Part shown: in pieces, positions 23,783 through 63,609 of the stretch
How positions within the stretch are numbered: position 1 is the first letter of the stretch
Layout of the letters: each line of letters begins with the position of its first letter
Assembly: GCF_008107625.1 (NCBI RefSeq)
Contig: NZ_SDKK01000005.1
Span: 44,324-108,323, forward strand
Origin: Zoogloea oleivorans
GTDB taxonomy: Bacteria > Pseudomonadota > Gammaproteobacteria > Burkholderiales > Rhodocyclaceae
Reading direction: 5' to 3'
Length of the DNA: 64,000 bases
Translations under genes and position numbers: made by a program
The notes under the pieces: model-generated
The model's database searches: none
What the model saw: only the letters and a program-made list of their open reading frames with translations
What the model was told of the DNA's origin: nothing

Positions 23783-23827
23783 GCGGTTTTTTTTCGGCGC
23801 TTCAACGCCATCAAACTGGCGGTGCCC

Positions 23828-26780: not shown

Positions 26781-26809
26781 TACTTTTCAAACCAAGATTC
26801 GGAGTCCCC

Positions 26810-28797: not shown

Positions 28798-28801
28798 GGT
28801 G

Positions 28802-34312: not shown

Positions 34313-34798
34313 GTGAAACGATTTTCATCTTTCGAAAGTGCCGTGAGTGTGATGATGCAAGATGCTTTTTTTCTGCGCAACGTGATTTCTGGCCGCGCCC
34401 TCAGCCGTGCGCGGTGGGCTACGATGGCGGCTGCCAGCATGCTCATGCTTGCAGGGTGTGCGGCTTTTGCACCAAAGGCGCCGGAGCTTGAAGTCCGGGA
34501 AAGAGCCCAGGCCCGGTGGGATGCCTTGATTGCTGGAAATTGGGAAAAGGCCTATAGTTACTCGACGCCTGCGTACCGTAAAGCGGTGGATTTGTTCGGC
34601 TTTAGGGCAAGATCCGCAGGGCCGGTTAAACTTAAGAGCGCCGAGGTCGTTAATGCAAGGTGCAGGGATCTGACATGCGAGGTAACCGTCCGTGTCGGGT
34701 TTGCACCGCTGCAGCGGGGATATCCGGAAACTTTTACTGATCTTGAGGACCGATGGGTTCTTGAGAGTGGTGACTGGTGGCGCTACGAGCGGTTCTAG
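34313..34798 (+). CDS. Small lipoprotein directly after gspD, possible secretin pilotin
   Basis: A 161-residue protein with a lipobox LMLAGC (Cys49 from the GTG start). In-frame ATGs at 34352 and 34355 would give a more usual 34-residue signal peptide and may be the true start. The mature part is about 110 residues: LEVRERAQARWDALIAGNWE, AYSYSTPAYRKAVDLFGFRA and RDLTCEVTVRVGF, with two cysteines that could pair, ending in WVLESGDWWRYERF. No family was recognised with confidence; the fold pattern recalls NTF2-like or DUF4440-type domains. Its location next to the secretin and its lipid anchor make a pilotin role plausible, but not shown. Confidence 0.78.
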   Translation: MKRFSSFESAVSVMMQDAFFLRNVISGRALSRARWATMAAASMLMLAGCAAFAPKAPELEVRERAQARWDALIAGNWEKAYSYSTPAYRKAVDLFGFRARSAGPVKLKSAEVVNARCRDLTCEVTVRVGFAPLQRGYPETFTDLEDRWVLESGDWWRYERF

Positions 34799-36625: not shown

Positions 36626-37519
36626 GTGATTACGTTGAAGTTGTCGACTCTGTACCTCGTTCCCTTTTTTGTAACGCTTGTCTCCAGCCAATCGGTTTGT
36701 GCGGCCGATGAAGTTGTCGTGACTCATGCCAAGGTCACCGTGAGTTCTGCCGATTTGCAGGCCGACATGGCAGGGCGATCGCCCGAGTTGCTGAAGCGTA
36801 TGCGCGAGCCTGACTCTCCCTCGGCTGAGCGGATGGCTGCCGACATCATGCTGCGTCGCCTGGTGGCGAACAAAGCCCGCGAAGAGGGCCTGGTGACCCG
36901 CAAGGATATCCTTGATCGCCTCAAGTTGGCGGAAGAACGTGCCTTGTACGAGATCTACATGGAGCAGGCCGAGTCCAAGACCGTGTCAGAGAGTCAGATC
37001 GAAGCCATCGCCCGCGATGAGTACAAGGCATTTCCCGAAAAATTTACCAAGCCTGAAGAAGTGCGTGCACGCCACATTCTTTTCCGGGCTTGCGGCAGTG
37101 ATCGGACAGCCTCCCGCGCGTTGGCCGAGTCCGTGCTCGAAAAGCTGCGCAATGGTGAGTCCTTCGAAGAGCTTGCCCAGAAGTATTCCGATGATCCCGG
37201 CTCAGGCAGGCGGGGCGGTGATCTCGGCATGAAGCCGAAGGGCGCGATGGTGCCCGAGTTCGAGGCGGTCGCCTTCGCCATGAAGAAGCCCGGAGAGCTT
37301 TCCGGGATCGTGGAGACCAACTTCGGGTTGCACATCATTCGTTTCGAAGAGCGCCAGGCGCCGGTGTTGCGCCCCTTTGACGAGGTGAAAGATGCCCTCA
37401 TGGAAAGTGTCCGCAATCGCATGCGAGGTGAGGTCCGCAAGAAAATCGCTGATCCGCTACGCGATCCTGCCGCGATCAAGATTGACGCGGACGCCGTACG
37501 GCGCGCAGTAAGCAAGTAA
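36626..37519 (+). CDS. Parvulin-type peptidyl-prolyl isomerase (SurA/PpiC-like), exported
   Basis: A 297-residue exported foldase. A signal peptide (LYLVPFFVTLVSSQSVCAAD) precedes an N-terminal helical chaperone part and a rotamase domain: VRARHILFRACGSDRTASRA, LAQKYSDDPGSGRRGGDLGM and PGELSGIVETNFGLHIIRFE, with the parvulin histidines. It acts in the periplasm. The frame opens at GTG 36626; a TTG at 36635 has the better ribosome site (GGGGTGA) and may be the true start. Placed directly after the abundant exported protein, it may assist its folding before secretion. A role within the polysaccharide region downstream (EpsD-like isomerases occur there) is the alternative. Confidence 0.92.
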   Translation: MITLKLSTLYLVPFFVTLVSSQSVCAADEVVVTHAKVTVSSADLQADMAGRSPELLKRMREPDSPSAERMAADIMLRRLVANKAREEGLVTRKDILDRLKLAEERALYEIYMEQAESKTVSESQIEAIARDEYKAFPEKFTKPEEVRARHILFRACGSDRTASRALAESVLEKLRNGESFEELAQKYSDDPGSGRRGGDLGMKPKGAMVPEFEAVAFAMKKPGELSGIVETNFGLHIIRFEERQAPVLRPFDEVKDALMESVRNRMRGEVRKKIADPLRDPAAIKIDADAVRRAVSK

Positions 37520-37561: not shown

Positions 37562-38353
37562 ATGAACATCCTGACCGAACTTTGGCAGCAGCGCTGGTTG
37601 TTCCTCACCTTTGTCCGGCGCGAGGTCACCAGCCGCTATTCCGGAACGATTGCCGGCGGATTGTGGGCGCTCGGTCAACCCGTGCTTTTGTTGATGATCT
37701 ACGGATTCGTCTTTCGAAAGGTCTTCAAGGTCGGGTTTCCCGAGTTGGGCGAGCACAGTTTCGTTGCATTTGTGGCCTGTGCCCTGTGGCCGTGGATGGC
37801 CTTCCAGGAAGGGGTGCAGAGGGCGACCCATGCGGTCGTGGGTAACTCCGGCCTGGTCAAGAAAGTGCATTTTCCCCATGAATTGCTGGTGTTCGCGTCC
37901 ATTGGCGCCACCTTCTTCATTCATTTCGTGGGGTTTATGGTGGTCATCTGTGCCCTGGCCATCGCTGGCGAGCCGTTCCGGTTTTCCGGGCTGCCGGTAG
38001 TGCTGATGGGCTGGCTGGCGCTGTTGCTGCTGGCTTCGGCCATAGCTTTGGTGACGGCATCCTTTCAGGTTTTTCTGAAGGACATCGACCACATGCTGGG
38101 CCCGGCGCTGATGATCATGTTTTATGTCACGCCGATTCTGTATCCCACGACTCAGGTGCCAGAGTCGGTGCGCTGGATCGTTGCTTTCAACCCGCTCGTG
38201 CATCTGCTCGAGCCCATCCGTGCTGGCTTGATGCACGGCAATCTCGCAGCTTTCGGGCAGCTTTCCCTTTTTATCATTGGCGGTGCAGGTGCCGTGTTCG
38301 CAGCAGTGCTGCTGTTTCGGCGTCTCTCCGACTATTTCGAGGATTTCATCTGA
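37562..38353 (+). CDS. wzm: ABC-2 type polysaccharide exporter permease (Wzm/KpsM-like)
   Basis: A 263-residue permease with six hydrophobic segments (WALGQPVLLLMIYGFVF, SFVAFVACALWPWMAFQEG, FASIGATFFIHFVGFMVVI and others). Features of the ABC-2 permeases of O-antigen export are readable: FLTFVRREVTSRYSGTIAG near the N terminus and MIMFYVTPILYPTTQVPESV in the fifth segment. It forms the channel that moves undecaprenyl-linked polysaccharide across the inner membrane with the ATPase encoded next. Its last base is shared with the wzt start (38353). Confidence 0.94.
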   Translation: MNILTELWQQRWLFLTFVRREVTSRYSGTIAGGLWALGQPVLLLMIYGFVFRKVFKVGFPELGEHSFVAFVACALWPWMAFQEGVQRATHAVVGNSGLVKKVHFPHELLVFASIGATFFIHFVGFMVVICALAIAGEPFRFSGLPVVLMGWLALLLLASAIALVTASFQVFLKDIDHMLGPALMIMFYVTPILYPTTQVPESVRWIVAFNPLVHLLEPIRAGLMHGNLAAFGQLSLFIIGGAGAVFAAVLLFRRLSDYFEDFI

Positions 38354-39552
38354 TGAGCGGGAATCCTGTTGAAGCCCCGCTGATCAGCCTGTCGGGTATC
38401 GGCAAATCGTATCCGATTGCAAATTCAGCCGCCGGTCGTATTCGTACCTTGTATTCCCTGCTGCGCCGCCAGCCTTTTGCCGAGCGTTATGACGCACTCA
38501 CGGACATCAGTCTTGAAGTACGCCGCGGAGAATCGTTGGGGCTGATCGGAATGAATGGGGCGGGCAAGTCGACGCTTCTGAAGATTATTGCCGGCGTAGT
38601 CAAGCCAACTGCAGGAGCGTTGCAGCTTCGGGGACGCATCAGTGCCTTGCTAGAGCTCGGGGCGGGTTTTCACCCGGAGTACACCGGTCGCCAGAATGTA
38701 TTTCTGGCGACCGCGTTGATGGGGTTGAGTGAGCGTGAGACACGGGAACGGCTAGACGACATTCTGGCTTTTGCCGATATCGGCGAGCATGTGGATCAGC
38801 CGATCAAGCATTACTCTTCCGGCATGATCGTGCGTCTCGGCTTTGCCGTTGCGACAACGGTCAGTCCGGACATCCTGATCACCGACGAAGTGCTGGCTGT
38901 TGGAGATGAGTCCTTTCAGCGCAAATGCATTGCGTGGATGGAAAACTACCTCTCGAGTGGCGGCACGTTGCTGCTGTGTGCTCACAGCATGTTCCACATT
39001 CAAAAGCTCTGCCAGAAGGCTGCATGGATTCATGACGGCCGCCTGCAGGCCTATGGAGACTCGCACCGCGTGACGCGGGAGTATCTAGCCTGGCATGACT
39101 CAAAGAGTACGCCGAAGGCGCAGGATCACGCGATGGCCATATCAAGCGGCACCTATGCGTTGCTTTCCATGTCGCTGAACGGCTTTCCCAGTCAGGAGGG
39201 GGTGACTGTGCCGGTTGGTGCGTCGCTGCGAATCGGTGGCCGGGTATTTTCGCCGGACGGACGCGTGCCGACTGCGTTGGTCGGATTCGTCCGCAAAGAT
39301 GGCATGCCGATTTATGGTGTTTCCTCCGAGATGGATGGTCATGTTCTGGCTCGCGTCGGCGCACAGGAGTACGAATTTGAATTCGAGGTACCTGAGCTTT
39401 CGTTACTGCCGGGTGAATACAGGGTCAAGGGGCACGCGCTGGATCCCGAGGGGTATCGTCTTTTTGATGAGCTGATTGGCGAGCTGACGGTGATCGGGGA
39501 AAGTCGTGAGCTCGGTGTGTGTCGGTTGCCGCATCGATGGAACGCCATTTGA
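38353..39552 (+). CDS. wzt: ABC polysaccharide exporter ATPase with C-terminal Wzt carbohydrate-binding domain
   Basis: A 399-residue ATPase. The nucleotide-binding domain has Walker A GLIGMNGAGKSTLLKII, signature HYSSGMIVRLGFAV and Walker B PDILITDEVLAVGD, the last two as in Wzt proteins. After residue 250 a separate beta-sandwich domain (VGASLRIGGRVFSPDGRVPT, YGVSSEMDGHVLARVGAQEY) matches the Wzt C-terminal domain that recognises the modified end of the O-chain, implying a chain with a capped terminus. It works with the preceding Wzm. The last 16 bases overlap the next gene. Confidence 0.95.
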   Translation: MSGNPVEAPLISLSGIGKSYPIANSAAGRIRTLYSLLRRQPFAERYDALTDISLEVRRGESLGLIGMNGAGKSTLLKIIAGVVKPTAGALQLRGRISALLELGAGFHPEYTGRQNVFLATALMGLSERETRERLDDILAFADIGEHVDQPIKHYSSGMIVRLGFAVATTVSPDILITDEVLAVGDESFQRKCIAWMENYLSSGGTLLLCAHSMFHIQKLCQKAAWIHDGRLQAYGDSHRVTREYLAWHDSKSTPKAQDHAMAISSGTYALLSMSLNGFPSQEGVTVPVGASLRIGGRVFSPDGRVPTALVGFVRKDGMPIYGVSSEMDGHVLARVGAQEYEFEFEVPELSLLPGEYRVKGHALDPEGYRLFDELIGELTVIGESRELGVCRLPHRWNAI

Positions 39553-44583: not shown

Positions 44584-44975
44584 GCAGGATGGGAATTCGT
44601 CCGGAGTTGCTCCGTTTTGTGCTAGTCGGTGTAGCCAATACGCTGGCGACGACCTTGCTGTACTGGGTCCTGCTTGCCGCGGGGATTCCTCCTGCGGCGG
44701 GTTTTGCGACGGCTTTCGTCTCGGGCATTGGGCTTGCGTGGTGGATGAACGGACGTTTCACCTTTTCTACCCGACACTCACGATGGGGGCTGGTGGTGTA
44801 TCCGCTGGTCTATGTGCCGTCCTGGGCACTCGGGCAATGGCTGCTAGGGATATTCATCGGTAGGGAAGTCCCGCCCTGGTTGGCAGGGCCACTGGCCAGC
44901 CTGTTGATTGTGCCTCTGAGCTTTGCGCTGAACCGTTTTTTCTTTCGTGGGTGGGGTCCCCGCCCACAGGCCTGA
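44580..44975 (+). CDS. GtrA family flippase-like membrane protein
   Basis: A 131-residue protein with four hydrophobic helices: [53 protein letters not shown] and [20 protein letters not shown]. The motif [10 protein letters not shown] and the terminal NRFFFRGW are the family marks. GtrA proteins are thought to flip the undecaprenyl-phosphate sugar made by GtrB. It starts at GTG 44580 overlapping the fusion-enzyme gene by four bases. Confidence 0.92.
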
Positions 44976-45021
44976 GGTCTGGCGTGCTCCCGTCTCAATC
45001 AATCTATTTGGATCTGGATTC

Positions 45022-45903
45022 ATGGCTTTGACATTTACCGGTGAGCGCTTTCTCCCGACCTGTGAAGGGGAGATGGTCTACGAGCATTGGCATCGCTATC
45101 TTTTTGCCCGGGAACACGTGGCCGGCAAGCGGGTTCTCGATGTGGCCAGTGGTGAAGGCTACGGCAGTGCGCTGTTGGCGGAGTGGGCCAACAGCGTGAC
45201 CGGTGTTGATATTTCCTCAGATGCCGTGAGGCATGCTGGCGAGCGCTATGGCAGTGCCGCCAACCTGAAATACCTGTGCGCCAGCTGCGCCAGGATTCCC
45301 TTGCCGGATGCCAGTTTCGACGTGATCGTATCCTTCGAAACCATCGAGCACATGACCGAGCACGAGGCCTTCATGGCCGAGGTCGAACGCCTCCTGGCGC
45401 CGGGCGGCCTGTTCATCATCTCGTCGCCGAACCGGGTCGAGTACACCGATCGGACCGGCTACAAGAACGAGTTTCATGTGAAGGAACTCGATGGACCCGA
45501 GCTAAGAGCCTTGCTGAATGCCCATTTTCCGGCTCAGCACTGGTTTGCCCAGCGCCCCTGTTTTCATTCCATGCTGTGGTCTCTCGAAGGGCCCGCGGTC
45601 GAGGCCCGCGTGCTTGCGGTGGACGGTGTAGATGCCTACCCGGTCGAGTTGTATTACCTGGTGTGCTGTGCAAAGGACGCCAGTGTGCTGGAGGCCATCG
45701 TGCCTGCTCTCAGTCTGGTGGCGGATCGACACCATTCGGTCTATCAGGAATGGAGCCGCACTTACGCCGAGAACCGGCAACTGACCGAGAAAGTCGCCAT
45801 GCTGGAAAAGCGTCTTGAGGCCACCTCGGTGGAGGAGGCCCCTTCTGTCTTCAGGTTGTTTAATAGGCTTGTGCGGAGTGTGCTGAATTTTTTCAAGTCG
45901 TGA
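45022..45903 (+). CDS. SAM-dependent methyltransferase with C-terminal helical tail
   Basis: A 293-residue class I methyltransferase. SAM-binding motif I is VLDVASGEGYGSALLAEWAN, followed by VTGVDISSDAVRHA and FDVIVSFETIEHMTEHE; LAPGGLFIISSPNRVEYTDR is motif III. The last 60 residues form a helical or coiled stretch (ENRQLTEKVAMLEKRLEAT) ending in LVRSVLNFFKS, as in glycan-modifying methyltransferases associated with a membrane. It may cap the O-chain, which would agree with the Wzt binding domain. ATG 45022 is chosen; an earlier frame has no family match. A hairpin follows its stop. Confidence 0.9.
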   Translation: MALTFTGERFLPTCEGEMVYEHWHRYLFAREHVAGKRVLDVASGEGYGSALLAEWANSVTGVDISSDAVRHAGERYGSAANLKYLCASCARIPLPDASFDVIVSFETIEHMTEHEAFMAEVERLLAPGGLFIISSPNRVEYTDRTGYKNEFHVKELDGPELRALLNAHFPAQHWFAQRPCFHSMLWSLEGPAVEARVLAVDGVDAYPVELYYLVCCAKDASVLEAIVPALSLVADRHHSVYQEWSRTYAENRQLTEKVAMLEKRLEATSVEEAPSVFRLFNRLVRSVLNFFKS

Positions 45904-48185: not shown

Positions 48186-48500
48186 ATGAGTACGGCGATG
48201 GAAGACGAAATCAAGCGTTGGACGGCCAAGCGCAAGAGCGCCTTGGTGATGGAAGTCCTGCAAGGGAAGACGACGGTGGCGGAGGCGAGCCGTTCGTACG
48301 ATCTGCCCCCTTCAGAGATCGAGACCTGGATCGATGAGGCGAAGCGTGGGATGGAGAACGCGCTGCGTGCCAACCCGCTGGACATCCGGGAGCAGTACGA
48401 GAAGCAGATCAAGCACCTGCAGGAAGCCTACGGGGAAGCGATGCTGGAGCTGCGTGCCCGAAAAAAATTGCAGTCCCTGCTGGGCGAGGACGAGAAGTGA
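48186..48500 (+). CDS. IS3-family transposase OrfA
   Basis: A 104-residue protein with helix-turn-helix pattern (ALVMEVLQGKTTVAEASRSY then LPPSEIETWIDEAKRGMENA) and a C-terminal leucine-zipper-like helix (YEKQIKHLQEAYGEAMLELR). It binds the terminal repeats. The ribosome site GAAAGGAACG is just upstream of the ATG. Codons near its 3' end include a run of seven A (48461-48467), where a -1 slip leads into the orfB frame with no intervening stop, so an OrfAB fusion transposase is expected. Confidence 0.92.
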   Translation: MSTAMEDEIKRWTAKRKSALVMEVLQGKTTVAEASRSYDLPPSEIETWIDEAKRGMENALRANPLDIREQYEKQIKHLQEAYGEAMLELRARKKLQSLLGEDEK

Positions 48501-49318
48501 TCGAGACGATCCGCCAGGGACTCAAGGAAGAAGGTGTTGTCGTCTCGATCAGTCAGCTGTGCCGGTGGTTTGAAGTGCCCCGTCGCACCTTCTACTACCA
48601 CTCGGTGAAGGCTCCGCCGAAGGTGCAGCCCCGCTTTGCCGAACCGATCAAGGCCATGATTGAGGACAACCCGTCCTTTGGCTACCGGACGGTGGCGCAT
48701 CTGCTGGGGTTCAACAAGAACACCGTGCAGCGGGTGTTTCAGCTGCGTGGCTGGCAGGTTAGGAAGCGCCCGGTGGGCTTCAGGCCGCGGATCGAAGCAC
48801 GACGCTCCAGGGCCTCCCAACCCAACGAGCGTTGGGCGACGGATCTATGTCGGGTCTGGGCTGGTCGAGATGGCTGGGCCACGCTGGCGTTGGTGATCGA
48901 CTGTTTCAGCCGTGAGCTTCTGGGCTGGCACGTCTCCCGCAGCGGCAAATCCCGCACCGCCGAAAGTGCGCTGGAGCAGGCCCTGATCGCCCGCTTCGGC
49001 ACGCTGGGGCGCGTGAAGGAGCCCTTCCTGCTGCGCTCGGACAATGGCCTGGTCTTCACCAGCCGCAGCTATACAGCACTGGTCAAGAGCTATGGCCTGA
49101 AGCAGGAGTTCATCACGCCCTACACCCCGCAACAGAATGGGCTGGTGGAGCGGATGATCCGCACGCTGAAGGAGCAGTGCATCCACCGCCACCGCTTTGA
49201 GACCCTGCAACATGCCAGCCGTGTCATTGGCGACTGGATCCAGTTCTACAACCACCAGCGGCCCCATCAGGCGCTGGAAATGAAGACACCCGCTGAGGCA
49301 TTCGCTTTAGCGGCATGA
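48497..49318 (+). CDS. IS3-family transposase OrfB (DDE integrase)
   Basis: A 273-residue rve-type integrase. Catalytic residues are Asp in NERWATDLCRVWAG, Asp in PFLLRSDNGLVF and Glu in QQNGLVERMIRTLKE. The N-terminal HTH_21-type part (PIKAMIEDNPSFGYRTVAHL) is typical. It can start alone at GTG 48497, overlapping orfA (GTGA), but the active enzyme is probably the frameshifted OrfAB. The reading frame is unbroken to the right terminal repeat, which begins in its stop codon. Confidence 0.95.
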   Translation: MIETIRQGLKEEGVVVSISQLCRWFEVPRRTFYYHSVKAPPKVQPRFAEPIKAMIEDNPSFGYRTVAHLLGFNKNTVQRVFQLRGWQVRKRPVGFRPRIEARRSRASQPNERWATDLCRVWAGRDGWATLALVIDCFSRELLGWHVSRSGKSRTAESALEQALIARFGTLGRVKEPFLLRSDNGLVFTSRSYTALVKSYGLKQEFITPYTPQQNGLVERMIRTLKEQCIHRHRFETLQHASRVIGDWIQFYNHQRPHQALEMKTPAEAFALAA

Positions 49319-49518: not shown

Positions 49519-50439
49519 TTAGTTATGGTCAAGGGCGTTGGTCGCCAGTTGGTGTGTCAAAAAGCAATGCGCGCAAAGCCACAGGTGCCAGGCCTCAGGT
49601 TTTTCTGTAATTGCGTCGTTCAGCAACGTTGACATAAACCCAATCTGTTCCGACGGGGAGCCTGGGGGTACCGGAAAGATGTCCAGGGTTCGTTTTCCGG
49701 TGCGCCAGTCAACGCTCATCAGGAATGCCGTAGCGGGAACGTCTTCTGTGGCGGCAATCTCCAGCAGACCGGAGGGGAGTGCTGCCGGACGGCCAAATAG
49801 TGTCATGCCGAGCCTGCCCTTTTCGGCTTGATGAGGGGGAACGTCAATCAGGCCTATTACGCAGATGCCTTGTTCGAAGGCTTTGCGGATCGACTTGATG
49901 CTGCCACCCGTATAAATCACGGGTGCGTTTCCGGCCTGTCTTACTTCGTGCATCCGGAAGCGGGCAATCCAGTAGGGAATCAGTTTGTTTCCGAAGGATG
50001 CGAGCGAAAACCGGATCGACAGAAAAGCCGCGCGGAGGCCTGTGCTGCGTATGTGTCGCAGGGACCACATGCCGGCACCGAAGTGAAAGGTGATGCCTAC
50101 AAACGGGCCGGTGGGCCAGGCTCCGGTGATAGTCACATGCTTTTCCAGCCATCGGTCCGAGCGGGTGGCGGAAATAAAGGCGTCAGCGCGATCTATCAGA
50201 ATTGTCAGGCGATAGCGGCGTAGCCATTCGGAATTGGGCGTGATGCCGAAAATGGCGCGGTAGCCTTCGCTGGCCGCTGCACATTCCTGAAATAGCAGGC
50301 GTGGGTTGCTGGCGAGGCGCGAGAGCCCGCGAAAATAAAGAGGCCACGGGAGCAGAGCGCCTGCGCCGGGAATCAGCAGGTGTTCGATGAGCCTTCGGAG
50401 GCTTGCCTTTGCGCTCGGCAGGAGAGGCCGCCTTTTCAC
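49519..50439 (-). CDS. LPLAT-like acyltransferase homologue lacking the HX4D/E acid
   Basis: A 306-residue protein resembling LpxL-type acyltransferases in layout: basic hydrophobic start (LIEHLLIPGAGALLPWPLYF), then VGITFHFGAGMWSLRHIRS, NKLIPYWIARFRMHEVRQAG and VIGLIDVPPHQAEKGRLGMT, which correspond to the active-site, lipid-binding and DxP blocks. In the first block, His is followed by FGAG and Met, so the usual Asp/Glu four residues on is absent. It may therefore act by another mechanism or only bind acyl chains. Start is GTG 50439, overlapping the HAD gene by four bases. The operon context suggests modification of a surface glycan. Confidence 0.75.
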   Translation of the reverse strand: MKRRPLLPSAKASLRRLIEHLLIPGAGALLPWPLYFRGLSRLASNPRLLFQECAAASEGYRAIFGITPNSEWLRRYRLTILIDRADAFISATRSDRWLEKHVTITGAWPTGPFVGITFHFGAGMWSLRHIRSTGLRAAFLSIRFSLASFGNKLIPYWIARFRMHEVRQAGNAPVIYTGGSIKSIRKAFEQGICVIGLIDVPPHQAEKGRLGMTLFGRPAALPSGLLEIAATEDVPATAFLMSVDWRTGKRTLDIFPVPPGSPSEQIGFMSTLLNDAITEKPEAWHLWLCAHCFLTHQLATNALDHN

Positions 50440-52490
50440 CCCTGTGCCCGGCGATGTTGCCAGCGCACCCGCACATATTTGTAAACCTTGCCTGCCGATA
50501 CCGCGGTGGTGAGGAAAGCCTTGTGCACCGGGTGCAGGTCGGTGCGCTTCTTCAGGCCGGCGGCCCACTGGGACTGGCGGATGTACTGGATGAGGCTGTG
50601 CCGGTCGCGGCGGATGAAGGGCGCGCGCAGCAGGACGCCCATGGAGGGCACGGCGCTTTGTTCGACGAACTGACCGACGCCGAAGACCTCGTTGTGGTTC
50701 AGGGAGGTGTAGGCCTCGAAGAGTTCCTGCGGGGTACGGCTAACCAGTGCGTTCCAGATGGCCAGGGCCTGGGGGCGCAGTTCAGCGCTCGATACCGCGT
50801 GGTTGTCGAGGTATTCAGCCCATTCCCGTGCAGCGAAGAGTACGCCTTGCTGGAAATGGGAGACGTAGCTGTCGAAGACGGTGTTCTCTTCGGCATCGAT
50901 GAGACGTTTGGCCTCTACGCGGCCTGACGCCGTGCGGCGATAGCCTTCGACGCTGCCGTTCGGCGAATTGCTGAGCATTTCGAGCGGGGCCACGGCGTCG
51001 AGCAGGTGGCTGGCTTCGAGTTGTTTGTTGAGGTCGGGGCCGAAGGCGTACTTGCGACAGTTGGCAGGTTGTTCGTTGAGGACGCGGGCCAGGCCGAGGT
51101 AGTGGCCGAAGACGGTTCGTCCGGACAGCAGGTGGGCGAGGTTGTCCTGGATGGTGCCGCGCCAGCCGATGTCGACGATGCCGAGGCGGGTGTCGGTGGC
51201 GGCGAGTCCGTGCTGTTCGAGGTAGGCGAGGAGGAGTTCGCGGTCACTGGCGGACTTGCCGGACAGCAGGGCCTGGAATTCGGCGTCGGCGAAGAGGGCC
51301 TGGACGCGGGCGTCCTGCCACGGGTAGATGACTTCTTCACCCACGGGCAGGCCGTGGCGGGCGCCCAGTGTTTCCAGCGCCGCCGGTTCGATGCCCAGCG
51401 AGCGGGCGAGGGCGAACAGGGACTGGGTGCTGTAGAGGTTCCACATGCGCATCAGCTCGCCGGTGCTCACTTCGCGCAGGGAGGCGCTGAAGGTGGCGAG
51501 GCGGCTGACTTCGAGAATGCCTGCGGGAGGCAATTCGACCCCGGTGATGCGCCCGGTGGGGAACAGGCTGCGGTAGATGTCGATGAAGAACTCACCCTCG
51601 CGGGTGAAGAAGAACAGCTTGTCGAGCTTTTCGTGGATGCTTTGTTCTGCTACCGACAGGCAGAAGCCAACCCACAGGGGGGCGGCCTGGGTGCCCAGCA
51701 GAAAGGCCGCCCGGGCATTGTCGCTGCGGCTGCCGAGGGCTTCCTCGACCTTGCCGGCGATGATCTGCTCCAGGTGCCCGAAGAACACTGCCCGGTCGGC
51801 GAACAGGCTTTCGCGCAGCTCCCGGTCGGCGTGCTGTTCGTCGGGCAGGTAATGCACCGAGGTGATGCCGATGGCGCCGGGAATGCTGACGTCCGAGTGT
51901 GCGTTGTCGCCGATGTGAACGTGATGCTCGGGTGCCAGCGCGAAGGCCTCATGGACGTGCTTGAATAACTGGCCGGAACGCTTGTTGAGGCGGATGTCGC
52001 AGGAGCTGATGCCGTCCGGGGCGACGTCGTCGAGGCCGTGGTGCTGCAGCAGTTCGTTGAGCATGCTCGCGGGCATGTAGAAGTCGGACAGGAACAGGGT
52101 GCGCTCGGCCGGATACTGGCCGATCACGTCGCGGCAGCCGGGGTCGGGGAAGGTGTTGGCCTTCTCGAGGGCCAGTTCGGCGGCGACGAGTTCATCGACG
52201 AGTTGGGCGACGTTCAGGTTCGGTGCGGTGACGACCCGCCGGACGAGATGATCGAGTACGGCGTGCAGGGTGTATTCGTCGTCGCTGCCCTGGCGCGAGG
52301 TGGCGCGGGCCAGTTCGCCTTCGATCTGGCAGCGCTCCCGGAAGATCGCCCAGTGGTCGGGGAAGCCGTCCGCCAGGCTCTGGCCGAAGCGCAGCTGGAG
52401 GTGGCGCGCGGCGCTGAGCTTGATGAAGTCCGGGTGGCACTTGCGCCTGAGAAGGGTGTCCCAGACGTCGAGCGTTTTGAGCTTGTACAT
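50436..52490 (-). CDS. HAD-superfamily hydrolase-like protein (COG5610-like), large
   Basis: A 684-residue protein. The N-terminal 210 residues are a HAD domain: motif I LKTLDVWDTLLRRK, motif II AERTLFLSDFYMP and motif III HHVHIGDNAHSDVSIPGAIG. The remaining 470 residues form a separate domain found in COG5610-type proteins of polysaccharide clusters (EKLDKLFFFTREGEFFIDIY, IVDIGWRGTIQDNLAHLLSG, EWAEYLDNHAVSSAELRPQA). Phosphate release from a sugar phosphate or lipid carrier is plausible; the large domain has no assigned job. It overlaps the LPLAT-like gene and follows the glycosyltransferase gene after 13 bases. Confidence 0.85.
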   Translation of the reverse strand: MYKLKTLDVWDTLLRRKCHPDFIKLSAARHLQLRFGQSLADGFPDHWAIFRERCQIEGELARATSRQGSDDEYTLHAVLDHLVRRVVTAPNLNVAQLVDELVAAELALEKANTFPDPGCRDVIGQYPAERTLFLSDFYMPASMLNELLQHHGLDDVAPDGISSCDIRLNKRSGQLFKHVHEAFALAPEHHVHIGDNAHSDVSIPGAIGITSVHYLPDEQHADRELRESLFADRAVFFGHLEQIIAGKVEEALGSRSDNARAAFLLGTQAAPLWVGFCLSVAEQSIHEKLDKLFFFTREGEFFIDIYRSLFPTGRITGVELPPAGILEVSRLATFSASLREVSTGELMRMWNLYSTQSLFALARSLGIEPAALETLGARHGLPVGEEVIYPWQDARVQALFADAEFQALLSGKSASDRELLLAYLEQHGLAATDTRLGIVDIGWRGTIQDNLAHLLSGRTVFGHYLGLARVLNEQPANCRKYAFGPDLNKQLEASHLLDAVAPLEMLSNSPNGSVEGYRRTASGRVEAKRLIDAEENTVFDSYVSHFQQGVLFAAREWAEYLDNHAVSSAELRPQALAIWNALVSRTPQELFEAYTSLNHNEVFGVGQFVEQSAVPSMGVLLRAPFIRRDRHSLIQYIRQSQWAAGLKKRTDLHPVHKAFLTTAVSAGKVYKYVRVRWQHRRAQG

Positions 52491-52503
52491 GCGGCGGGTG
52501 TGT

Positions 52504-53718
52504 TTATCGATTCTCGAGCAGTCGACGCGCCACGCGCAGGCCCCAGCCGAGGAAGCGGCGCAGGCGGGGGGGGAGCGAGTTTACGTAGGCGTTTGGCGGT
52601 GAGGACAGGCGCTTCTGGATGCTGGCCGGAAGGGTGCCGACGTAATGGCGGGAGGTTTCTGCCGGCGCGGTGTAGAGGCGCTCGACGCCGGCGAGATCCG
52701 GCGTCTGGCCCTTCAGGACGCGCTCGACCGCGTCACGGAACTGGTCGGTTTCGACGCTCAGGGGCCGGTCGGCCATGAAGTGGGTACCGGCCTGGCTCAT
52801 GCTGGCGCGGGTGGCGGGCTTGTCGAGCAGGCGCAGGATGCTTTCGGCGATGCATTCGGGCGTCTGGTTGGCCAGGGTGACGGCTTCCGGTGGGAAGTCG
52901 TAGAGGGTGTTCTCGCGCCACATTTCGACGACCGGCAGGCCGGCAGCCATCATCTCGAAGGGGATCCGTGACGGGTTCGAGGCGCTCAGGCACAGCCCTA
53001 CGGCGCTGCGGTTGTACAGGGCATTGCAGTCTTGCAGGTTGAGCAGGCCAAGGTGCTCGTGCTCGAACCAGATCTGCCCCTTCTCCCGGGCGGGAGAGCC
53101 GTACAGATAAATCTTCACCTCGGGCATGCGATGCTTGACGATGCCCAGCGCTTCCAGGCCCAGGCGGCTGCAGCGACGCGGCTTGTCGGGCTGGTGGATG
53201 AAGCACACTGCGAGTTCCTTTTTGGCCTCGGGCAGTGGGCGATAGATGTCGAGATTGGCCCCGAAGTCGAAATGGTAGGCCGCCACGCCGAAACGATCGG
53301 CGAGTTCATGGCGCAGCCAGCGCCCGATGGTCACCGGGGTGAGCCCGTAGCGGTAGGAGTTCTCCGCCATCAGGTAGGCGTCACCCATCGGATTGAAGCA
53401 GGCTTCGTAATCCTGGACGAAGTACAGCTTGCGGCACGGGAAGGGCAGGTCGCGGACGAAGGCGGCGGAGTACCAGATGGTGGCGATGGCCGCGTCGGCG
53501 GGCTGGATGTTGTCCCAGCCGAAACTCACCCGTTCGAAGCTGTAACCGAAGATCTGCTCGATCAGTTGCCGGCCCTTGTCGGGGTCGGTGTGTGTGCCTT
53601 CGAGGTAGAGATGGCAGCGGTGTCCGTGCCGTTCGAGGGCGAGGGCGTGTTCGAGCATCGTCCGATGCCCGCCCGAGCCTTCGATCAGCCTCGGGATGAG
53701 CCAGGCGATAGTTGCCAT
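52504..53718 (-). CDS. Glycosyltransferase, GT-B fold (rhamnan-synthesis WsaF-like group)
   Basis: A 404-residue protein starting MATIAWLIPRLIEGSGGHRT, a nucleotide-sugar-enzyme N terminus with the glycine-rich EGSGGHRTM. The donor half has AVCFIHQPDKPRRCSRLGLE, LYGSPAREKGQIWFEHEHLG and LCLSASNPSRIPFEMMAAGL, equivalent to the EX7E region of retaining GT-B enzymes. It ends with a basic amphipathic tail (LPPRLRRFLGWGLRVARRLL) that suggests membrane contact. It begins the three-gene minus-strand operon with the HAD and LPLAT-like genes. ATG 53718 is chosen; longer readings are not supported by family pattern. Confidence 0.85.
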   Translation of the reverse strand: MATIAWLIPRLIEGSGGHRTMLEHALALERHGHRCHLYLEGTHTDPDKGRQLIEQIFGYSFERVSFGWDNIQPADAAIATIWYSAAFVRDLPFPCRKLYFVQDYEACFNPMGDAYLMAENSYRYGLTPVTIGRWLRHELADRFGVAAYHFDFGANLDIYRPLPEAKKELAVCFIHQPDKPRRCSRLGLEALGIVKHRMPEVKIYLYGSPAREKGQIWFEHEHLGLLNLQDCNALYNRSAVGLCLSASNPSRIPFEMMAAGLPVVEMWRENTLYDFPPEAVTLANQTPECIAESILRLLDKPATRASMSQAGTHFMADRPLSVETDQFRDAVERVLKGQTPDLAGVERLYTAPAETSRHYVGTLPASIQKRLSSPPNAYVNSLPPRLRRFLGWGLRVARRLLENR

Positions 53719-55766: not shown

Positions 55767-55770
55767 TGGA

Positions 55771-58294: not shown

Positions 58295-59580
58295 CGGGGA
58301 TGCACTCCGCCTGCTGTCGTCAGGCGCCGCAGCAGCCGTTTGCAGCGGTTCCACGGGTTGTTCCGGATTTCGATAGCCTGCGTCTCGATGGTGACGTCCC
58401 GCTCCGCGATGGCGATATCCCGTTGCCGGATCTCGTGGCCCATCTGCTCCATGGCGGTCCAGCGTTGCTCCAGCATGGCCGCTTGGGCGCTAAGGGCTTC
58501 CCAGCGTTCTTCGATCAGTTTTGCCTGGGCGGCGATGCAGATGTCCCGCTCCGCGATCGTGTTGCTCATTTGTTTGATGGTGGCACCGCGCTCGTCGATC
58601 AGGGCGGCCTGAGCCGTCAGGGCGGCCTGTTGTTCGGACAGGCTTCTGGCCGACAGAAGAATCCGCTCGTCCAGCCCACTGGTGCGGGCGAGGGCGGGTA
58701 AAAACCAGTTGCCGTCGGTCTGGCGGGCTAGCGCACGCAGGGCGTCGGGGTCGGGCAGGTGGGCGGCTGCGACGAGAAAGCTGAGGGTCGAGACCGGGTG
58801 AAGGCTGCGGTTGCGCAGCAGGGCGGTGCACGCGGTGGTGGCGTCGAGCTCCGGATGGTGCTGGCGGAGTGCGAGGGTCTGGATGTAGGCGTTTTCGTGC
58901 ACGTGCCGCCAGACGTCGTCTTCGGCAAGGGTGTTGGTGGGATGGACCCGGTAGTCGACCAGCTCTTCGCGCAGCCACAGGGGCGCTTCGGTGGCACTGG
59001 CGCGCAGGGCCCATTCCCAGTCGTGGGTGTAGCGCAGGTCGGAGAATTCGCCGATCTTCTCCAGAAGCTTGCGCGGGAAGACGAAGTTCGAGGTGGTGAT
59101 GGCCAGGTTGCTGGTGAGCAGCCAGCTGGCTGGTGGCTGGTCGGTGCACAGCCGGCAGGCCGCAGCATGATCTTGCGCGCGCTCGTGATCCGGGGCCGGA
59201 TGGCCATCCGAGTCGATGAAGCGGACGTCGCTGAAGGCCAGGCGTTGTGTGTCGCCGATGGCGTCCACCATCCGCTCCAGGCGTCGGGGGTGGAAGGCAT
59301 CGTCGGAGTTGAGGATGGCCAGGTAATCGCCGCCAGCGAGGGCGAGTCCTTCGTTGAGGGTGGCGTGGGCGCCTCGATTGGTGTCGTGGCGAAGGGCGCG
59401 GAGGCGGGGGTCGCGAAGTGACTGGATGGCTGCCCAGGTGCCGTCCCGCGAGGCGTCGTCGATGACGATCAGTTCCAGGTCGCCAAGGCTCTGGGCGAGG
59501 ACGCTTTCGAGGGCTTCGACCACGTAGGTTTCATGGTTGAAGGCGGGGACGACCACGCTGATCTTGGGGGCTGTTTTCAC
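58291..59580 (-). CDS. Family 2 glycosyltransferase with long C-terminal coiled coil
   Basis: A 429-residue protein. The GT2 domain (ISVVVPAFNHETYVVEALES, VIDDASRDGTWAAIQSLRDP, LAILNSDDAFHPRRLERMVD with the metal-binding SDD) covers residues 1-230. After residue 310 come 90 residues of heptad-patterned sequence (ALIDERGATIKQMSNTIAER, AAMLEQRWTAMEQMGHEIRQ), a predicted coiled coil, ending with a basic tail. Such tails occur in glycosyltransferases that assemble or measure chain length. GTG start at 59580 overlaps the large transferase gene (GTGA), and its stop overlaps the acyltransferase start. Confidence 0.87.
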   Translation of the reverse strand: MKTAPKISVVVPAFNHETYVVEALESVLAQSLGDLELIVIDDASRDGTWAAIQSLRDPRLRALRHDTNRGAHATLNEGLALAGGDYLAILNSDDAFHPRRLERMVDAIGDTQRLAFSDVRFIDSDGHPAPDHERAQDHAAACRLCTDQPPASWLLTSNLAITTSNFVFPRKLLEKIGEFSDLRYTHDWEWALRASATEAPLWLREELVDYRVHPTNTLAEDDVWRHVHENAYIQTLALRQHHPELDATTACTALLRNRSLHPVSTLSFLVAAAHLPDPDALRALARQTDGNWFLPALARTSGLDERILLSARSLSEQQAALTAQAALIDERGATIKQMSNTIAERDICIAAQAKLIEERWEALSAQAAMLEQRWTAMEQMGHEIRQRDIAIAERDVTIETQAIEIRNNPWNRCKRLLRRLTTAGGVHPR

Positions 59581-62500
59581 GGTGTGGGTTTCGCAGGCGA
59601 TTGCTGGGTGTCGTCGAGGACCTGACGGCTGCGCAGGATGATCCGGGTGCGTCGGGAGGGCGCCATGTCGAGCCAGGCCAGCAGGGCCGCACAGGCGCTG
59701 TCGTGGGTGTCTGGCGTGACGTGATGAGACTGCTCCACCGGCAGGTAGTCAGCGGTTGTGGCGGCGTCGGCTGGACTCAGGATGAACAGCCCTGCGTCGA
59801 TGGCGGCCTCCCCGTTTTGCCGCAAGCTGGCTTCATCGTAGGCCAGAAAGGCATCGGCGGAGAGGAGAAAGGCTTCCCGGTCGTGCAGGGATTCAGCGAA
59901 GAAAAGTTGCCGGGTCGCTACCAGCGTGGACATTTCTTCCTGCACGGAGTCCCAGCAGGTGGCGTCTGTGGTGCTTCCGGCCAGTATGGCGCAGATGTCG
60001 TTTCGGGCGGAGGTGATTGAACGGATGAGTTGGATGTAGCGGGAACTGACGGCTTTATCCGGTGGTGTGCCGATGCTCAGTACGATCAAACCTTGGTCGG
60101 GAATGCCGAACCAGTGGCGAACCCGTTCCCGGATTTCACGGCGGCCTGCCGCATCAAGCTGGGGGAGGGATGGGCCATGGGGGGCGTGTATGAATGCTGC
60201 TGGTGGAGGAGGAGGGTTTGCCGGTCTCTTGCGTATGGCCAAGCTGAGGCTCCGCAGAGGTGCCGAGAGTCGCCAGGAGTTGGAGGCCAGGAGTTCCTGC
60301 AGGCGTGTCTCGCTGTGATGATTCCGGTCTTCCAGATTCGCAATCCATTCTTGCTGGCTGCGAACGGTTTCCTGCAGATTCGTCATGGCATGATGGACGT
60401 GCCGGTCTTCTTCCGCTCGACGGCGTAGGCTGTCGATACGCCGTGCGACAGTCCGGTCGGCAGGGTTGGCCATGGGCACCGGCAAGAGCACTTCGTAATC
60501 AGCGACCATCGTTTTGTTGCTGCGAGGTGGGTGCGACTGCAGCGTGCGGCGCATGGCTGCAAGCTGAGCGGGCATTGAGAGCAGTTGTTCGAGAGCCGTC
60601 GCAAGGGCCTTGGCCTCGGGTTCGACGAGCACGCCGGTGATGCCGTCTGCGATGCGTTCGGCAAAAGCGCCGACACGGGTTGCGACGACCGGAATTCCGA
60701 GCGCGAACATTTCGCTCAGGGTATAGCTGAAGGATTCGGGGAGCACCGATACGAGTAGTGCGCAGTCTGGTGCGAAGTTCCGGACGATTTCGGCTAGTTC
60801 GTGGTGTGCATAGTTCTCGATGACCTCTACACCAGCTCGGCCTTTGAAGGGGCGACCGAAGTCGCCGCTTCCCAGCAGCAGGATGTCCGCTTTGTCGAGG
60901 AGGGCCGGCAGGGCTTCGCGGAGCAGGCCAAGCCCCTTGTGGGGGGCCAGACGGCCGGGGATGAGAATGCGCGGGCGATGTGAGTCCGGCCGGGTAGAAG
61001 GTGCTGATCCGGCGGGGAGTTGTTGTGGATCAAGGCCGTGCTCGATGCGGGTCCAGGGCTTGTCGGCCAGGCCGGGTTGCAGTGCTGCCCAGCGTTGGTG
61101 GATGCTGTGGCTGGGTGCAACCACTTGGACTGACGGGTGGGCGATGTGCGCGGCGTACTCGCGACGGAGAATGTGCCAGTCGATATCAACCGTGTTGTGC
61201 CAGAAGACGTTGAGAGAGTTGGTGCGCAGGCATCCGGCCAGACGTTCGGGCTGACAGTCTGTGCAGGTGTTGTCGAAGTGGGCGAACAGGGCGGGACAGA
61301 ATGGATAGAGGTCGTGCAGGACGACGATGGTCGGCTGGCCGCTGCAGAGTGCTTCGAGGCTGTGTCCGATCAGGGAGGAAACGACAAGGCTGCCAACATG
61401 AAAGTCGGTCATGACTTCATCCAGAATGCGCGCGTATTCCGGGTGGGATGGTGTGCTGGCGCGGATAGGGAGTTGCAGGTCCCAGGTGAGTAGCGAGAGG
61501 TAATCTACGGCGGGCTCGACGAGCTCAAGCCGGAATCCTGCTGCGTTGCGGTGGCTCACCGAGCGCAATAGCAGGTTGCGTCGCTTGGTATCGGTGCGGC
61601 AGTAGTCGGCGATCCAGCGGTCGGTACCGCCGCCCCAACTGTGACTAATGTGCAGTTGCACTGGGCGTGGTTGTGTCGTCTGCTGCTCATTGGCCGTTGT
61701 GCTGGCGCTGTCGTTGTGCTGGGCGTGTACCTCGGCTTCCTCGGCGCCGCCGCAGGCGCAACGTGCTCGGTCGATCATCTGGCGCAGCGGGGCGATGGGG
61801 TCGCGACCGATGAAGGCCCTGATCATGTCGAGATAATCCGGGTGGGCCTCAAGGAGGCGTTTCATGGCGTTTTCCTGCAGCGTCGCACGTTCTGCAGAAA
61901 AGCTGACTCCGCCTTCGTGAAAGACGAAGACGTCGGCGGCCAGGAGGTTTTGCCAGCCTTGCGCTGCGGCGCGCCTGCAGAAGTCGTTCTCTTCACCGTA
62001 GCCGCGGCCGAAGCGCTCGGCGTCGAAAAGGCCGACCTGATCGAGGCAGGTTCGCCGGATATACATGCAGAAACCAACCCCGGTGGGGATTTCGATGGTC
62101 CGGCCGGGCAGGGTTTCGGCAATCAGACGGTCGAGCCCGGCCAGGCCGAGGGTGCCCGGAACGCCGCCGTTCCAGCCCTCGAAGGGATAGGAGCAGATGG
62201 TGGCGTTGTTGGAGAAGGGGGTCAGCGTGCCGGCGGCGGGGTTGTGCTGCGCGGTGGCGACGAGCCGGTCGAGCCAGTCGTTGGCGACTTCGGTGTCGCT
62301 GTTGAGCAGGACGAGGTCACGCCCGGGATGCAGGGACATCCCGCGGTTTACGGTGAGGACGAAGCCCAGGTTGCGCTCGTTGGTGAGGAGCGTGAGGCGA
62401 CCTTCCGCCGCGAGCTGCTCCAGCCATTCGCTCAATGCCGGTTCGGGGCTGGCATCGTTGATGGCGACCAGTTCGAAGGGGGTGCGTTGTGCGTTGTTCA

Positions 62501-62591
62501 GGACGCTTTCAAGGCAGCGCCGTGTTTCGGCCAGGCCCCGATAGATGGGTACGATGACATCAATGGGGATGGTCTTCACTGGGGTTATCAT
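59577..62591 (-). CDS. Large multidomain glycosyltransferase: GT-A (family 2) plus GT-B (family 4)
   Basis: A 1004-residue protein. Residues about 5-260 form a GT2 domain (IPIDVIVPIYRGLAETRRCL, LLNSDTEVANDWLDRLVATA, GFCMYIRRTCLDQVGLFDAE). A GT-B domain spans about 320-720: HISHSWGGGTDRWIADYCRT, RILIPGRLAPHKGLGLLREA and VLPESFSYTLSEMFALGIPV (EX7E). A coiled stretch near 760-800 (ETVRSQQEWIANLEDRNHHS) leads to a last 180-residue region (GLIVLSIGTPPDKAVSSRYI) that looks like another half-domain. It may add two different sugars in turn. ATG 62591 is chosen; an in-frame extension upstream has no domain pattern. It is the first gene of a three-gene operon. Confidence 0.87.
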   Translation of the reverse strand: MITPVKTIPIDVIVPIYRGLAETRRCLESVLNNAQRTPFELVAINDASPEPALSEWLEQLAAEGRLTLLTNERNLGFVLTVNRGMSLHPGRDLVLLNSDTEVANDWLDRLVATAQHNPAAGTLTPFSNNATICSYPFEGWNGGVPGTLGLAGLDRLIAETLPGRTIEIPTGVGFCMYIRRTCLDQVGLFDAERFGRGYGEENDFCRRAAAQGWQNLLAADVFVFHEGGVSFSAERATLQENAMKRLLEAHPDYLDMIRAFIGRDPIAPLRQMIDRARCACGGAEEAEVHAQHNDSASTTANEQQTTQPRPVQLHISHSWGGGTDRWIADYCRTDTKRRNLLLRSVSHRNAAGFRLELVEPAVDYLSLLTWDLQLPIRASTPSHPEYARILDEVMTDFHVGSLVVSSLIGHSLEALCSGQPTIVVLHDLYPFCPALFAHFDNTCTDCQPERLAGCLRTNSLNVFWHNTVDIDWHILRREYAAHIAHPSVQVVAPSHSIHQRWAALQPGLADKPWTRIEHGLDPQQLPAGSAPSTRPDSHRPRILIPGRLAPHKGLGLLREALPALLDKADILLLGSGDFGRPFKGRAGVEVIENYAHHELAEIVRNFAPDCALLVSVLPESFSYTLSEMFALGIPVVATRVGAFAERIADGITGVLVEPEAKALATALEQLLSMPAQLAAMRRTLQSHPPRSNKTMVADYEVLLPVPMANPADRTVARRIDSLRRRAEEDRHVHHAMTNLQETVRSQQEWIANLEDRNHHSETRLQELLASNSWRLSAPLRSLSLAIRKRPANPPPPPAAFIHAPHGPSLPQLDAAGRREIRERVRHWFGIPDQGLIVLSIGTPPDKAVSSRYIQLIRSITSARNDICAILAGSTTDATCWDSVQEEMSTLVATRQLFFAESLHDREAFLLSADAFLAYDEASLRQNGEAAIDAGLFILSPADAATTADYLPVEQSHHVTPDTHDSACAALLAWLDMAPSRRTRIILRSRQVLDDTQQSPAKPTP

Positions 62592-62760
62592 TAGGCTGTG
62601 TCCGCCAACCGCTGCAGAAGAGGGGTGGGCGGCGCATCGGCTTTCGCATCGAATGGGGAGGCATGTATTGTGCCAACAAGAAATCGATGGTGCCATGTTG
62701 TCGTAAGGGTGCTGCGAAGAATGGCGACTTGTCGAGTGGGATCGGGTTGAAAGGTCTGGT

Positions 62761-63609
62761 TTGAGCTGTATGGGATTTTCGGTGTTGATGGCCACTTACG
62801 GGCGCGACGATGTGGGGCATCTCGAGGAAGCGCTTGAGAGCCTGGTGCGTCAAACCCTGAAGCCCTCGGAAGTGGTGTTGGTGGAAGACGGGCCGATCAG
62901 CGCAGAGGCCCGGCTGGTCGTCGAGCGGTATCGCGCTGTGCTCAATATCAAGTCGGTTGTCATGCCGGGCAATGTGGGCCTGGCGACAGCCTTGAACGAA
63001 GGGCTCCGCCAGTGTGCGAACGAGGTGGTTGCGCGCTTCGATAGCGATGACATTGCCGTGCCCGAGCGTTTTGCGCGGCAACTTGTGGCCATTGAGGGCG
63101 ATCAGTCGGCCGATGTCGTTGGCTGCTTCGCCCAAGAGATGGATATTGCCGGCAAGCTCGGCGGAATGCGTTCGATGCCGGTGGGGCATGAGCAGATTCT
63201 GGAGAACCTGTGGGCCTGTCCGATCATTCATCCGAGCGTGATTTACCGGCGCAGCAGGATTCTCGCCGTCGGCGCTTATCGGACCGACCTTCGGCGGAGC
63301 GAGGATTATGACTTGTGGTTTCGCTGTGCGAAGGCGGGCCTGCGCTTTGCGAATCTGCCGGAAGCGCTGATCCTGCATCGTTTCGACCAGACCAGCCATC
63401 TTCGTCATTCCTTTGGCGATGCTTTCGAGCGCGCGATGACCGGGTATCGGGGCGCCTGTCTGCTGGGTATGCCTGTGTGGAAGCGGCTGGCATGTTTCGT
63501 ACCCCTGCTGCGGGCCGTGTTGCCCACCCCTTTACGGCATCCGGCCTATCGTTTTCTGTCCCGTTTTGATCCGCGCCGCAAAACGCCCGTGAAGGGGGCC
63601 GACATCTGA
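62761..63609 (+). CDS. Family 2 glycosyltransferase (EpsE/LgtA-like)
   Basis: A 282-residue protein with GT2 motifs FSVLMATYGRDDVGHLEEAL, VLVEDGPISAEARLVVERYR, VVARFDSDDIAVPERFARQL (DSDD metal site) and RTDLRRSEDYDLWFRCAKAG (ED motif, catalytic base). It has no transmembrane segment. The start may be TTG 62761, which is placed well behind an AAGG ribosome site, or ATG 62770. It is transcribed divergently from the 1004-residue transferase; the shared 169-base spacer should hold both promoters. It ends the polysaccharide region. Confidence 0.9.
   Translation: MSCMGFSVLMATYGRDDVGHLEEALESLVRQTLKPSEVVLVEDGPISAEARLVVERYRAVLNIKSVVMPGNVGLATALNEGLRQCANEVVARFDSDDIAVPERFARQLVAIEGDQSADVVGCFAQEMDIAGKLGGMRSMPVGHEQILENLWACPIIHPSVIYRRSRILAVGAYRTDLRRSEDYDLWFRCAKAGLRFANLPEALILHRFDQTSHLRHSFGDAFERAMTGYRGACLLGMPVWKRLACFVPLLRAVLPTPLRHPAYRFLSRFDPRRKTPVKGADI

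Follow-up and report, generated by a model that had tools for sequence, protein, structure and literature searches.

A candidate VexE-like acyltransferase of the LPLAT fold, without the usual acid of its HX4D/E motif, associated with a glycan exporter in NpdA-type surface-layer loci

VexE acylates UDP-N-acetylglucosamine (UDP-GlcNAc) at C-6 from beta-hydroxyacyl-acyl carrier protein (ACP) for the terminus of the Vi glycolipid. It carries Tyr at the position of the HX4D/E acid; its His mutant is without activity and its block-3 Asp mutant is substantially reduced (PMC9597891). In PatA, His126 pairs with Glu200 of block 3 and the D131A substitution at HX4D keeps 37 % of the activity, and its authors suggest that block 3 is used in HtrB and MsbB too (PMC4792965). 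NpdA forms the surface layer (S-layer) of Paracidovorax citrulli, with gsp genes near npdA (PMC10765051). In the O antigen cluster of Aeromonas salmonicida, wzm and wzt are separated by the genes of the type II secretion system (T2SS) and the S-layer, and lipopolysaccharide tethers the layer (PMC4483657). Here we analyse a stretch of 64,000 nucleotides from Zoogloea oleivorans (contig NZ_SDKK01000005.1, positions 44,324 to 108,323), further referred to as the window. It contains a gene for an LPLAT-like acyltransferase (49519..50439, minus strand, 306 aa, GTG start) and an NpdA-type S-layer locus with a Wzm-Wzt glycan exporter. On balance we lean towards a working, VexE-like acyltransferase that lipid-modifies the glycan exported by Wzm-Wzt in this locus, because relatives of the gene are linked to the exporter, are tied, as an optional part, to NpdA, and have a precedent in VexE.

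The LPLAT-like protein was modelled with AlphaFold2 (AF2) from 44 sequences (predicted local distance difference test, pLDDT, 91.9; predicted template modelling score, pTM, 0.89). LpxM and PatA held the top Foldseek ranks for this model. VIA-align gave Z 21.9 for PatA (230 residues, 2.8 Å) and 21.5 for LpxM (264 residues, 6.4 Å), followed by PlsC with 7.9. By the model, the protein has an LpxM/PatA-type LPLAT fold, shared with the solved PatA and LpxM (5f2t, 5kn7) at 9–15 % identity in the structural alignments. PatA and LpxM keep the acid at HX4D/E, whereas the window protein reads H119-FGAG-M124-W125, and the Met noted there by a sequence-only reading of this DNA is indeed present. In hhalign, the LPLAT family matched 33 Lip_A_acyltrans proteins with a probability of 97.9 % in local and 99.1 % in global alignment, and D199 was aligned with their block-3 Asp. 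These control proteins, a subset of all matches (29 retrieved as loci plus 4 others), carry an acid at HX4D/E as well as Asp in block 3 in 33/33 cases. A search of PDB sequences with the LPLAT profile touched PatA weakly (E 0.13).

The acid is lost across the whole subfamily as sampled here. In the 44-row alignment, the HX4D/E position is occupied by Met in 37 rows, Leu in 4 and Phe in 3 (acid 0/44), while H119 and D199 are present in 44/44. Since these rows were collected partly with a pattern over the HX4D/E motif, only the set of nine sequences gathered by homology (the window protein and 8 others) is unbiased for the acid; it has Met, Leu, Phe, Trp (5) or His at this position, the acid in 0/9, and H119 and D199 in 9/9. 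L060 (fused open reading frame, ORF), L076 (internal stop) and L085 (truncated start) are left out of the 44 rows, which are 28–38 % identical to the window protein. A catalytically dead LPLAT, binding a lipid tail and guiding the substrate to Wzm-Wzt, would account for the loss of the acid from the whole subfamily. We consider this very unlikely: H119, D199, R162, D83, D86 and W284 are invariant over the 44 rows, VexE retains activity despite a loss of this kind, and PatA likewise weakens the reading. The sequence-only reading, which proposed an unusual acyltransferase, had named an acid supplied from elsewhere in a known LPLAT subfamily as an observation that would speak against it; the literature describes such a use of block 3 in PatA and VexE. 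By analogy with these enzymes, the window protein is probably active despite the lost acid.

The resemblance to VexE, drawn from its published residues, consists in an LPLAT fold with PatA and LpxM as its closest neighbours, a lost acid, retained His and block-3 Asp, and a glycan ABC exporter in the locus. They differ in that VexE has Tyr where the window family has Met, Leu or Phe (Trp or His in distant members), and in that the window family, unlike VexE, adjoins wzt in S-layer loci.

Fold and distant sequence kinship to LpxM and LpxL could also mean that the gene encodes a late lipid A acyltransferase, or one for another ordinary lipid, present in the locus by chance. PF03279 is touched by 19/44 relatives at E up to 1 (L060 with 23.1 bits vs 22.3). 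This explanation seems unlikely to us, given that an ordinary Lip_A_acyltrans pair exists elsewhere in the genome, with a third match at window positions 1126-2076, and that the LPLAT gene shows a link to both wzt and NpdA. The pair is a typical one on the same contig (G000:C37:10596-12307), and the third match, at the window start, is a diverged Lip_A_acyltrans gene (43.7 bits). Of three matches to LPLAT in the sample drawn from the phylum, one (G182) proved to be an ordinary Lip_A_acyltrans protein and was rejected.

Gene context was analysed in 46 LPLAT loci from a scan across named genomes. Most belong to Comamonadaceae, and the remainder to Azoarcus, Sedimenticola and others. The scan used a three-row alignment and a motif pattern, and the pattern favours loci with FH(W/F)G(A/T)G(M/L/F)W among the 46. 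With the LPLAT protein as a single query, the genome collection yielded no relative. Neighbours were identified by tblastn with the window proteins (E up to 1e-5), many loci being cut by contig ends. Matches to Wzt were found in 44 of the loci and to Wzm in 36, followed by the PPIC-type peptidyl-prolyl isomerase (PPIase) in 33, NpdA in 32, a small lipoprotein in 31, a GT2-GT4 glycosyltransferase in 29 and the secretin GspD in 28. Measured from where the Wzt match ends, the LPLAT start lies within 150 bases in 35/46 loci and within 3 kb downstream in 41/46. The link to the exporter is repeated without an S-layer in a distant second group, L161 and L162 (52 and 35 bits), where Wzm, Wzt and LPLAT (L161:4582-7598, L162:1558-4542) are followed by a methyltransferase-like ORF and the genomes have no NpdA match; their LPLAT proteins carry HX4M and HX4L with the block-3 Asp, the exporter neighbours having been read by eye.

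Several relatives have other arrangements. In one genus, an EamA-type transporter is fused ahead of an LPLAT domain with HX4W (L035:8971-10770, L036:9531-11276, L037:8331-10094, L038:9641-11374, L039:8447-10423; the EamA match was tested in L036 only). Their neighbours, where examined, include chemotaxis genes, PPK2 and others, and no S-layer genes. LPLAT is fused to an mtB-type S-adenosylmethionine (SAM) methyltransferase in L060:8965-10743, and tandem LPLAT copies follow wzt in L048 and L049 (about 9000-10800). The LPLAT-like proteins of L159:3850-7653 and L160:1656-4852 stand by ABC transporters that, as judged by eye, begin with a peptidase C39-like part, and may possibly serve the lipid modification of a secreted peptide.

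The plus strand of the window between 31954 and 39552 has the same gene set and order as the LPLAT loci. It starts with gspD (31954..34284; TIGR02517, 443 bits against a cut-off of 351), preceded by further T2SS genes (23822..31946; Pfam T2SSE at E 1e-142, T2SSG and T2SSM_b, the others putative by their order and size). A small lipoprotein-like protein with a lipobox-like LAGC seen by eye (34313..34798) is followed by the NpdA-like S-layer protein (34997..36469, ORF opening at 34883), which has no Pfam family and is 38 % identical over 546 columns to the L057 protein. Next come the PPIase (36626..37519; Rotamase_3, E 4e-30), the permease Wzm (37562..38353; ABC2_membrane, 60.9 bits) and the ATPase Wzt of the polysaccharide ABC exporter (38353..39552; ABC_tran, 77 bits, and synteny). 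Wzt has 149 residues beyond its ATPase domain, where Wzt_C scores 21.7 bits against a cut-off of 30.4.

From species, size and place, we infer that the P. citrulli protein L057_4 is the published NpdA. T2SS genes stand upstream of the NpdA homologue both in the window and in the locus described in PMC10765051. What is added here are the genes downstream, for Wzm-Wzt, the PPIase and either LPLAT or a methyltransferase; the available part of that paper names gsp genes only, 'acyltransferase' being absent from it and 'ABC transporter' appearing once, among the references. A literature search found nothing on Wzm/Wzt or LPLAT in NpdA loci. The A. salmonicida A-layer/O-antigen cluster resembles the window in mixing T2SS and S-layer genes with wzm and wzt; its vapA encodes another S-layer protein, set apart from NpdA by description, and 'acyltransferase' is absent from the part of PMC4483657 at hand.

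The distribution of the two genes was compared in 220 genomes of a Comamonadaceae-type family, with thresholds of E under 1e-100 for a strong NpdA match and E under 1e-90 for a full-length LPLAT. Strong NpdA was found in 22 genomes and full-length LPLAT in 7, all within those 22 (Fisher 3.8e-8, which is no true probability, the genomes being related); NpdA is matched weakly in 4 more genomes, and LPLAT weakly and in part in 11. Loci were retrieved from 5 of the 7 LPLAT genomes. LPLAT and NpdA are on separate contigs in G856; in G1030 the LPLAT contig carries NpdA only as a C-terminal piece. In 299 genomes of another family, taken as Burkholderiaceae in the narrow sense, NpdA had 0 matches and LPLAT only partial C-terminal ones (in 19 genomes). 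With the P. citrulli NpdA-cluster protein as query, tblastn found no relative on plasmids. G840 and G856 have six NpdA matches each, some in tandem, one of those in G840 being a short fragment.

What occupies the LPLAT position in its absence was determined in all 15 strong-NpdA loci without a full-length LPLAT. In 11 of them Wzm and Wzt lie downstream of the PPIase, and these were counted for the methyltransferase mtA; of the other 4, two have no T2SS or exporter match in 19 kb and two are cut by the contig end. mtA follows wzt in 11/11, at a distance of at most 215 bases in 9 loci, 642 in L145 and 1124 in L142. In loci with LPLAT it was found in 2/52 rows (2/50 after removal of two duplicates), namely L086 and L090, where it stands between wzt and LPLAT. 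In almost every locus examined, the place behind wzt is taken either by a methyltransferase or by an LPLAT that lacks the usual acid. The methyltransferases mtB and mtC occur on both sides of this split.

Wzt trees were built from 52 rows out of 63 loci. L059, L069, L073, L075, L077 and L078 have no Wzt row, the ATPase match was too short in L051, L054 and L087, and two rows, L154 and L155, were removed because they duplicate L066 and L065. The mtA label changes 3 times on the tree of the C-terminal domain (2–3 in bootstrap) and 6 times on that of the ATPase domain (5–7), and the C-terminal domains of L086 and L090 are nearest to those of mtA loci. Together with the alternation in the slot and the published binding of methyl caps by Wzt C-terminal domains (PMC9445017), this would fit an acyl cap that replaces the methyl cap, LPLAT capping the non-reducing end and the Wzt C-terminal domain reading the cap for export. 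We regard this as a doubtful, though conceivable, alternative. L055, L057, L062, L068, L072 and L156 have LPLAT and no mtA match, and yet their C-terminal domains fall inside a clade of 13 mtA rows. Because the 3' end of wzt adjoins the next gene, one recombination tract could move both without any functional connection; furthermore, L059 and L073 are short around wzt, and mtA could be missed there. Our literature search showed no acyl cap read by Wzt, and to our knowledge none has been described. A wider version of this idea, which we advance only tentatively and do not expect to hold as a whole, is that LPLATs without the HX4D/E acid are a broad, undescribed class of partners of ABC glycan exporters, in which an acyl cap replaces the methyl cap, a co-evolved Wzt C-terminal domain reads it, and the lipid-tipped glycan ties the NpdA S-layer to the cell.

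A number of observations weigh against a working VexE-like enzyme acting on the exported glycan. The acid matters in related enzymes: in E. coli LpxL, activity falls 3000-fold in E137A and only 15-fold in D200A, and E127 is critical in A. baumannii LpxM (PMC6286764). A crippled enzyme is possible, because the HX4D/E acid matters so strongly in LpxL and LpxM. The window protein has 0 Pfam families even at E 10, falling below the PF03279 cut-off, and no NCBIfam model. VexE has an N-terminal tetratricopeptide repeat (TPR) domain that the window LPLAT does not; there is no room for it, because the protein has 306 aa and the LPLAT match takes up residues 51–298 (PatA) or 2–306 (LpxM) of its model. 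As to gene context, LPLAT does not follow wzt in L075, L077 and L078, which have only weak ABC matches further downstream, and L069 has no ABC match. In the window itself, the LPLAT gene is 10 kb from wzt, on the opposite strand and beside an IS3 element. A full-length LPLAT was not found in 15/22 strong-NpdA genomes; therefore the S-layer does not need LPLAT, which is an optional part of NpdA loci. Finally, the Wzt C-terminal domain is kept with or without LPLAT, an observation more in keeping with a non-reducing-end cap than with a reducing-end anchor.

The chain end may be seen in two ways: the mtA swap and the C-terminal domain of Wzt point rather to a cap, with LPLAT perhaps acting in place of the methyl cap, and known chemistry points rather to a VexE-like acylated sugar. 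Under the reading we favour, that of a VexE-like acyltransferase, His119, presumably held by Asp199 of block 3 as in PatA and VexE, would take the proton from a sugar hydroxyl, and the hydroxyl would attack an acyl thioester (acyl-ACP or acyl-CoA). The product would be an acylated sugar, either a nucleotide sugar or one at the reducing end if VexE is a guide; it would become the lipid-modified terminus of the glycan before export by Wzm-Wzt, and the exported glycan may help to keep the NpdA layer attached to the cell.

The LPLAT gene is the last of three minus-strand genes (49519-53718), which are placed and coupled as the sequence-only reading had described. The first encodes a glycosyltransferase (GT) of the GT-B type (52504..53718, 404 aa). 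It is WsaF-like, with Pfam WsaF_C at 71.6 bits (cut-off 27), WsaF_N just below its cut-off (26.4 vs 27) and Glyco_trans_1_2 above its own. The amphipathic tail attributed to this enzyme was recovered near the C-terminus (hydrophobic moment 0.79, 18 residues from 385). A 13-base gap separates it from the second gene (50436..52490, 684 aa), whose stop is overlapped by the LPLAT gene by 4 bases.

The second protein had been read as a COG5610-type HAD protein with a 470-residue unassigned domain. Its HAD part (about 1–217) stands, and the remainder finds an assignment: in a phmmer search of PDB sequences, a single alignment to 7shg, 'Ribofuranosyl transferase', covers residues 4–619 of 684 (E 3.7e-40), which rules out an undescribed fold for residues 210–684. 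The HAD motifs DVWDTL at 8, SDFYMP at 135, NKRSG at 169 and GDNAHSD at 194 line up with 7shg, and TREGE at 296 and DIGWRGTIQDN at 440 correspond to its SREGE and DVGWKGTIQDN. The HAD part alone also matches Bcs3, the capsule polymerase of Haemophilus influenzae type b (E 6e-8, phmmer). Neither this protein nor the LPLAT protein has a Pfam family at E 0.001, and a fold model of the former from three sequences was poor (pLDDT 57.5, pTM 0.44) and was not used. Judged by homology, it is the known bifunctional enzyme PRP-gPRT, a HAD phosphatase (PRP) joined to a glycan phosphoribosyltransferase (gPRT) that uses phosphoribosyl pyrophosphate (PRPP) as the source of ribofuranose. It resembles 7shg (Thermobacillus composti), Bcs3 and the Klebsiella pneumoniae O4/O7 enzymes in its two-domain build and the same HAD and gPRT motifs, and differs from 7shg by about 65 extra C-terminal residues. 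In enzymes of this type, gPRT adds ribofuranose-5-phosphate from PRPP and the PRP phosphatase then strips the 5-phosphate of that ribose (PMC11127046); the two activities are combined in one protein also in PMC11231755 and PMC10299916. In the window, gPRT would transfer ribofuranose-5-phosphate, the HAD domain would remove the phosphate and the WsaF-like GT would add a neighbouring residue. The idea of a set that glycosylates, dephosphorylates and acylates survives in so far as such enzymes, with acylation probable, are present in a glycan locus; a lipid phosphate as the phosphatase target does not.

PRP-gPRT homologues were matched in 21/299 phylum genomes, including that of the window, several over the HAD part only. 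Among the 46 LPLAT loci, tblastn found them in 2 and WsaF in 1, the latter being the only locus with the WsaF-PRP-gPRT pair; a conserved trio operon was rejected for these loci. The earlier proposal that the three genes form a self-contained trio making its own new glycolipid draws on their tight coupling in the window (13-base gap, 4-base overlap). We find it hardly credible, as its own author had named absent conservation of the trio as contrary evidence and such conservation is largely missing: the pair shares a locus with LPLAT in 1/46, not as a trio there, and the displaced LPLAT gene of the window is flanked by the IS3 element. That locus, L053 of Sedimenticola, has every S-layer-locus gene, LPLAT after wzt, and the WsaF-PRP-gPRT pair together 5.8 kb away, its PRP-gPRT homologue being 42 % identical. 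Within the sample of 46 loci the trio is local to the window, while the pair of GT and PRP-gPRT looks like an older unit on the strength of this one locus.

The IS3-family insertion sequence lies beside the displaced LPLAT at 48186..49318 on the plus strand. The family match (NF033516 transpos_IS3, 211.5 bits, cut-off 160) belongs to its second ORF, 48497-49318, the first being inferred from its place. Relatives of both IS3 ORFs follow LPLAT in L083 (Curvibacter sp. HBC61). A SAM methyltransferase is encoded at 44947..45903 on the plus strand (Methyltransf_11, E 5e-24), with relatives in L051 (230 bits, directly after LPLAT) and L049 (207 bits). The two-module GT2-GT4 glycosyltransferase, identified by Pfam, is at 59577..62795 on the minus strand. 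A hexapeptide acetyltransferase fused to an FdtA/WxcM-like domain, as in dideoxy-amino-sugar pathways, occupies 43600-44583. The region 53841-57116 contains a membrane protein without a family, a small protein that resembles GtrA by eye, and a GT2 whose AglJ match falls short of the cut-off, and looks like a three-component periplasmic glycosylation set.

Most of the mystery of the three genes is gone, as they appear to combine a known ribose-adding enzyme with a probable VexE-like acyltransferase. The useful remainder is that NpdA-type S-layer loci carry their own glycan exporter. According to the VexE authors, it is unclear whether further variants of the Vi-type assembly strategy exist (PMC9597891), and the LPLAT loci are concrete candidates for such variants, found in harmless bacteria. 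The attachment of NpdA layers to the cell, a topic not addressed in the available part of PMC10765051, becomes testable.

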